Assembly (NCBI RefSeq): GCF_022814725.1
Contig: NZ_CP093442.1
Coordinates: forward strand, 2,790,001-2,854,000
Reading direction: 5' to 3'
DNA: 64,000 nucleotides
Origin: Bdellovibrio reynosensis
Lineage (GTDB): Bacteria > Bdellovibrionota > Bdellovibrionia > Bdellovibrionales > Bdellovibrionaceae
Below are positions 49,402 to 50,232 of the stretch, piece after piece. The position numbers and the translations under genes were made by a program. The notes beneath the pieces were generated by a model. It saw only the letters and a program-made list of their open reading frames with translations, did no database searches and was not told where the DNA came from. Positions within the stretch are counted from its first letter, which is position 1, and the number at the start of each line of letters is the position of its first letter.

Positions 49402-50232
49402 ATGTTCACTGAAAAAAGGGCTGAAAATATAGCATTTTTACTTAACAAACCCGATATGGATTTGGCCTTCGTCGAATATCAGGGTGTAGTTTATTATGCC
49501 CATTATCCAAAGGGTCACCTTGCGCCATCGTCCGCTGTAGTAAAACTGCTGCAAGGCTTATTTGATTGTTTCTTGGATCACAGTTTTTTTATTCTGCGCC
49601 AACGGATTTACTCAACTGACGCCTTAAGCGAAATGTGCAAGGGAATGCTTAAGGTGGTAGCGAAAAGGGCTAGCGAACTTGTAAAACCTCAAGACCATAA
49701 AATAGAAATCGTAGTTAAATTTCAAGACGTGGGCGGAATAGATCCTGTCGTTTCTGTTTCTCAGCTGAATGATGAGAATAAAATCTCTTTAGCTGAAATT
49801 CAAAGTTTAAGTCTTTTTCAATCCGCAAAAGACAGTCACAGTTATTTTGATTTCACTAAGATATTAGCAACCAAAGTTCGTCGCGGTGAAATTCTGCATG
49901 ACTATGATCGCAATATTGCAGCGATTTTAGTTGATAAAGAACAACGCCTTTTAAGTTACGGCATCAATTCCAATTCGAAGAATAAAACCTTGCATGCAGA
50001 AGTGAACTTGATCCAGAAATATTTCGAGCTTTCAAAAGGTAGAAAAATTCCTGTTGGCGCAAAAATATTTTCAACCCACAAGCCTTGTAAAATGTGTGCC
50101 GGGATGATTTACCATTGGAGTGAAAACCCTATGGCGATTGAAGTCCTTTACGGCATTGAAGAATCCGGCGGACTTTCCCGTCACACGGTTCTTGATCGGT
50201 TTAAACTCAATAGAGCCATCATCGCTCCTTAA
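49402..50232 (+). CDS. Bd3614-type nucleotide/nucleic-acid deaminase
   Basis: A 276-residue protein with a C-terminal deaminase domain (~160-276): zinc motif His198-Ala-Glu200 (LHAEVN) and Pro228-Cys-x-x-Cys232 (KPCKMC), the helix [24 protein letters not shown] before it, and a long loop [20 protein letters not shown] after. The N-terminal ~155 residues form a separate domain of unknown fold. I recall this arrangement as the family named after Bdellovibrio Bd3614. Target (base, nucleotide or RNA) unknown. Start ATG 49402; RBS poor. Divergent from rlmK by 65 bp. Confidence 0.78.

Follow-up and report, generated by a model that had tools for sequence, protein, structure and literature searches.

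In APOBEC3G an inactive N-terminal deaminase domain is followed by an active one, and the E. coli-type cytidine deaminase carries an active and a degenerate deaminase domain in one chain. In the ADAT2-ADAT3 pair, related to TadA, ADAT3 is named inactive in the PDB. Here we describe a protein of Bdellovibrio reynosensis that can be set beside each of these enzymes. Its catalytic half shares the HAE and PCxMCA motifs and the fold of TadA and ADAT2-ADAT3, and the very probably dead partner domain recalls ADAT3. However, the protein differs from TadA in that the partner is fused into the same chain, that KPC stands in place of EPC, and that the C-terminal helix is apparently absent. The dead-then-live layout is shared with APOBEC3G and other two-domain AID/APOBEC proteins, but the motif is of the TadA and not the APOBEC type, and no AID/APOBEC model is matched above its cut-off (the best, SNAD4, gives 20.8 bits against 27). 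Relative to the E. coli-type cytidine deaminase, the order of the domains is reversed.

The Bd3614 protein and its catalytic domain

The gene lies on the window, the whole stretch of 64,000 nucleotides that was analysed (contig NZ_CP093442.1, positions 2,790,001 to 2,854,000), to which the coordinates below refer. The features discussed are the following.

49402..50232, + strand: gene of the Bd3614-type two-domain deaminase (open reading frame; PF14439 and PF14442; 276 aa)
49402..49743, + strand: N-terminal domain, very probably a degenerate deaminase, residues 1-114 (PF14442: 6-92; hhalign, AF2, VIA-align)
49744..49827, + strand: variable linker, residues 115-142 (low conservation; lowest pLDDT block, 71)
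49828..50229, + strand: catalytic TadA-like deaminase domain, residues 143-276 (PF14439; Foldseek; VIA)
49366..49394, + strand: promoter-like element TAGACA-N12-TATGG-TAACAA (7 nt from the end of the element to the ATG)
48416..49330, - strand: RlmK-like 23S rRNA methyltransferase gene, divergent to the deaminase gene (likely ATG 49330)

The gene is intact, with a likely ATG at 49402 (the earliest possible start in this frame being a TTG at 49399), and its product is a plain member of the known Pfam family Bd3614-deam plus Bd3614_N. PF14439 (Bd3614-deam) matched residues 165-271 (1.7e-40, 138 bits, cut-off 38.5), which bears out the original prediction of a Bd3614-type deaminase. The HAE...PCxxC core was likewise found at the C-terminus, where it had been placed, as HAE at residues 198-200 and PCKMC at residues 228-232, both motifs being invariant in 33 of 33 family members. 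The N-terminal region had been described as about 155 residues long and uncharacterised; the length and the lack of an assigned function hold, but the region belongs to a catalogued family and has a recognisable fold. The profile search that had been proposed for it returned PF14442 (Bd3614_N) at residues 6-92, just above the curated cut-off of 25 (1e-5, 26.2 bits for the full-length protein and 28.9 bits for the domain alone). The full-length AF2 model has a pLDDT of 93.4 and a pTM of 0.91, and identity across the genus is 52-62%. Domain order and length are as in other proteins with PF14439 and PF14442, with no structural difference; what this analysis adds is the interpretation that Bd3614_N is a dead deaminase. 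Bd3614 is not named in the literature searched, whose scope left out the 2011 deaminase-superfamily survey (NAR gkr691); the reading may be new, and we claim no priority for it. Both families have so far been named without an explanation of function.

The catalytic domain has a TadA-type fold, as seen from Foldseek (TadA 6l2l, 8.5e-7) and from VIA (Z of 15.3 against TadA 1wwr, rmsd of 2.1 over 122 residues). The VIA score was equally high, with Z of about 15, for the NE0047 guanine deaminase, while a profile search with the catalytic half ranked tRNA-type deaminases first; the Foldseek matches also include the 8e2 and 6vpc entries. H198, E200, C229 and C232 are invariant among the 33 relatives. 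D108 of TadA matters for the preference between RNA and DNA, as known from work on TadA base editors; by hand alignment its counterpart here is position 254, where 31 of the 33 have D or E. The chain appears to stop at a point corresponding to TadA residue ~135-150, before the last TadA helix.

Other deaminase families gave lower scores, and their curated models stayed far below the cut-offs: the TadA equivalog profile gave 18.2 bits against 150, the tetrameric cytidine deaminase (Cdd) profile 14.8 against 113.65, and the NCBIfam model of anti-phage dCTP deaminase 16.5 against 400. Guanine deaminase, Cdd (of the short single-domain type) and TadA each have a gene of their own elsewhere in the genome, which also contains a RibD-sized deaminase frame. 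The Bd3614 protein thus fills no standard deaminase job, nor is it an ordinary deaminase of cytidine, guanine or tRNA-A34.

The N-terminal domain as a probable degenerate deaminase

The N-terminal region had been taken for an unrelated domain. This part of the original prediction has to be given up, because the profile comparison, the topology of the model and the fold search all look like a degenerate deaminase. The first hint came from secondary structure and from a segment of 14 residues in the N-terminal part that runs in register with the C-terminal half. Indeed, when residues 1-100 were compared with residues 144-276 by hhalign, using the 33-sequence alignment, the score was 30.15 (P of 5.9e-5, 41 columns), and the pairing joined the HAE-helix and PCxxC-helix regions of the two halves. 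The highest score among 200 column shuffles was 20.3, and the reversed domain gave 12.3. An alignment of 26 sequences, partly overlapping the 33, returned the identical register. Against TadA and guanine deaminase sequences the N-terminal domain scored 22.6, again on the PCxxC motif, and five unrelated neighbour families, used as a control, scored 10-18.

The stand-alone AF2 model of the domain (pLDDT of 90) has the order a1-b1-b2-a2-b3-a3-b4-b5, as in deaminases. With this model Foldseek placed TadA on top, but non-significantly (E of 0.039). VIA-align gave Z of up to 7.9, and among the 50 matches listed essentially all were deaminase-fold proteins, comprising cytidine, guanine, tRNA, dCMP, blasticidin and RibD deaminases together with FdhD. 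A search of PDB chains with the sequence profile of the domain found no match, so that the relation is visible only in the comparison of the two halves and in the fold search. The a1-b1-b2-a2-b3-a3-b4 core, taken with the profile similarity, is that of the deaminase superfamily, while the fold search alone stays below significance. Each of these lines is of moderate weight; all together they make it very probable, judged from sequence profiles and models, that Bd3614_N is a degenerate second deaminase domain.

Among the 33 relatives, the site aligned to the catalytic His is occupied by Ser, Thr or Ala, HAE being replaced by SAV-like residues, and the catalytic Glu is found at the aligned position in none. 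The first Cys is absent in all 33, with Thr, Ser, Asn or Met instead, and the second is kept in 16. Because His, Glu and the first Cys are missing throughout, we call the domain catalytically dead. Its conserved residues are L49, R66, K88 (Lys in 32 relatives and Arg in one) and R89 (30 of 33). In 31 of these relatives the domain carries a net positive charge. Read as a dead deaminase, Bd3614_N leads to a testable pseudo-dimer model of the whole protein.

Inheritance, neighbours and the upstream element

A single-sequence search found the gene in 23 of 24 genomes of the genus, and ten further genomes of the order also gave a match. In a profile search, about 65 of the 369 genomes of the phylum scored more than 90 bits (counted from the match list); weaker matches in the phylum, at 49-63 bits, are TadA-like and extend over little more than the catalytic part. 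Scanned with the alignment, 84,980 bacterial and archaeal species yielded two-domain relatives almost only in Bdellovibrionota, namely in Bdellovibrio, Oligoflexia, Silvanigrellales including Fluviispira, and Pseudobacteriovorax; a contig scan with one sequence gave nothing. Two divergent loci (L076 and L086) carry labels other than Bdellovibrionota. The Pfam model of Bd3614_N is too narrow, as it recognises 20 genomes of the phylum, nine of them over its cut-off, against the roughly 65 that have the two-domain protein. Outside Bdellovibrionota, two Paraburkholderia loci (L074 and L077) have a KPCKMC deaminase core with a different N-terminal part.

The gene is chromosomal and single-copy, in a genome that is a single contig of 3.58 Mb, and no match was found in 50,697 phage records, in 72,556 plasmid records or in the viral contigs searched. 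In one sister genome, G005 (locus L119, G005:C1:2777500-2785500), the gene is absent and 232 bp stand at its site, with the flanking order of histidine-kinase-like gene, RlmK and next neighbour kept. This clean absence, set against conservation elsewhere, indicates that the gene is vertically kept yet dispensable, and it makes the sister a natural comparison strain.

The divergent neighbour matches NCBIfam PRK11783 over profile positions 388-702 (411 bits, 5.8e-123, below the full-length cut-off of 466), and looks like a stand-alone protein homologous to the C-terminal half of E. coli RlmKL. Of 31 carriers at the family level, 29 have it divergently beside the deaminase gene, even where protein identity is as low as 29%, whereas the rest of the neighbourhood varies among those carriers; a histidine-kinase-like gene is a further neighbour across the genus. 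RlmK also occurs in many genomes without the deaminase and thus does not depend on it, and the pairing may be one of inherited position only. In one family member (L047) a MutS2-like gene takes the place of the RlmK-like neighbour. The neighbours of distant relatives are DinB/UmuC in an overlapping operon (L049), AlkD (L052), DprA (L066 and L067) and, at two loci, cytochrome c552.

The element upstream of the gene (TAGACA, 12 nt, TATGG and a TAnnAA-like hexamer) occurs in all 23 of the upstream regions that were aligned, 6-8 nt before the ATG. It is unique in this genome and was not seen in the deaminase-free sister, for which reasons we assign it to the deaminase gene rather than to RlmK. Its sequence would correspond to a -35 box and an extended -10 element at a spacing of 17 nt. 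If so, transcription probably starts at the ATG itself and the transcript is leaderless. A sigma-70 scan did not flag the element because of its weak -10 hexamer. A regulon behind the element was considered and rejected, as the element is unique and brings in no co-regulated genes.

Several other frames near the deaminase gene may be mentioned. A frame directly downstream (50268-50633, + strand; likely start at 50338) would encode a small, secreted, Tyr-rich protein with a signal peptide; it has no Pfam match and is not found in the loci of relatives. On the - strand, 45728-47017 is a frame of 429 aa that reads like SpeD (S-adenosylmethionine decarboxylase) fused to SpeE (spermidine synthase), and 47254-48327 encodes a signal-peptide protein that has no Pfam match at E<=1 and resembles NodB polysaccharide deacetylase (FDGG, GHEIAS and RAP motifs). 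Further downstream, 52923-53396 (+ strand), also without a Pfam match, encodes a Cys-rich helical protein resembling copper-storage four-helix proteins.

Candidate substrates

We infer an internal pseudo-dimer of the two domains, RNA as the substrate and a house-keeping target. In this model the C-terminal TadA-like domain, through H198, E200, C229 and C232, would carry out zinc-dependent hydrolytic deamination. The N-terminal domain, a duplicated deaminase fold without the His and first-Cys zinc ligands and without the proton-shuttle Glu, would have been kept as a built-in partner, packed in the position that the second subunit occupies in a TadA-type dimer. The conserved basic patch of R66, K88 and R89 may help to hold nucleic acid. 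The enzyme would be cytosolic, and its target a house-keeping RNA of the cell. From sequences and models, we consider the chances about even that the protein is an RNA base deaminase. The narrower proposal, a Bdellovibrionota-specific RNA-editing or RNA-modifying deaminase whose fused dead duplicate is the RNA-gripping half and whose target RNA is edited by no known bacterial deaminase, which would make it a bacterial counterpart of ADAT3/ADAT2 in a single chain, is put forward tentatively, as a possibility somewhat short of even.

The RNA reading is suggested, without amounting to proof, by the dead-plus-live layout, the basic patch, the TadA-type pocket, the acidic residue at the D108-like position and the pairing with an rRNA methyltransferase gene. 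The separate genes for other deaminase jobs also speak for this reading. It is weakened by the apparent absence of the C-terminal helix with which TadA binds tRNA, by the repair and DNA-uptake genes beside distant relatives, by the lack of a tRNA that needs a repairing edit, and by the one sister that does without the gene. We had considered tRNA repair and rejected it: U8 is kept in all 32 tRNAs read here and in 33 read in the sister, and the anticodon sets look complete. For Arg(ACG), the only anticodon that needs A-to-I conversion, the genome has its own TadA. The deaminase-free sister does possess an additional tRNA-Ala(GGC), but nothing can be concluded from this one difference.

The same repair and uptake neighbours (DinB/UmuC, AlkD, DprA and the MutS2-like gene) would suit a deaminase that acts on DNA during repair, competence or induced mutagenesis and whose dead domain holds single-stranded DNA as in APOBEC3G, and TadA-fold enzymes can be converted into DNA editors, as the 8e2 and 6vpc entries illustrate. 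We regard such a role as unlikely. These neighbours vary by lineage, and in Bdellovibrio the neighbour is the rRNA methyltransferase; the acidic residue is kept at the D108-like position; and endonuclease V, which acts on inosine in DNA, was not found in the genus and is present in only 4 of 369 genomes of the phylum, for which reason it was also dropped as a candidate partner. An enzyme for small molecules (a free base, a nucleoside, or a modified nucleoside salvaged from prey RNA or DNA), in which the dead domain replaces a dimer subunit, is rather unlikely too. Its nearest folds include NE0047 guanine/ammeline-type and guanosine deaminases, Bdellovibrio takes up prey nucleotides, and the absence of the gene from one sister would suit a role in salvage. 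However, the genome already has genes for guanine deaminase and Cdd, a small substrate needs neither the basic patch nor a positively charged N-terminal domain, and salvage does not require a dead twin, other salvage deaminases being simple homo-oligomers.

Many bacterial toxins contain deaminase domains, which also occur in defence systems, and a PADLOC search gave a match to a dCTPase/deaminase model, at E of 0.025 and far below a useful score. Nevertheless, we consider it very improbable that the protein is a prey-directed toxin, an injected effector or an anti-phage defence enzyme. The defence and phage libraries searched yielded no usable match, the chain shows no signal peptide and no toxin-delivery, export or trafficking domain, and the gene is a single chromosomal copy, inherited vertically with conserved synteny. 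The neighbouring genes, RlmK-like and histidine-kinase-like, include no immunity or toxin gene, in agreement with the original prediction. That prediction had left a choice between a house-keeping and a prey-directed role. The first fits better, allowing for the one sister that lacks the gene, and the second is weakened by the lack of a visible signal peptide and of a toxin-type neighbour and by vertical inheritance that extends to Fluviispira.

If RNA is indeed the target, the Bd3614 protein would be a rare bacterial RNA deaminase other than TadA, and a compact two-domain TadA relative might interest developers of base editors. As to the TadA of this genome itself (L034, region of G000:C1:2339613), it appears to be fused to a NUDIX-like domain at its C-terminus, with a length of 309 aa; TadA frames measure 310-328 aa in most members of the genus and 158-186 aa in several other genera.
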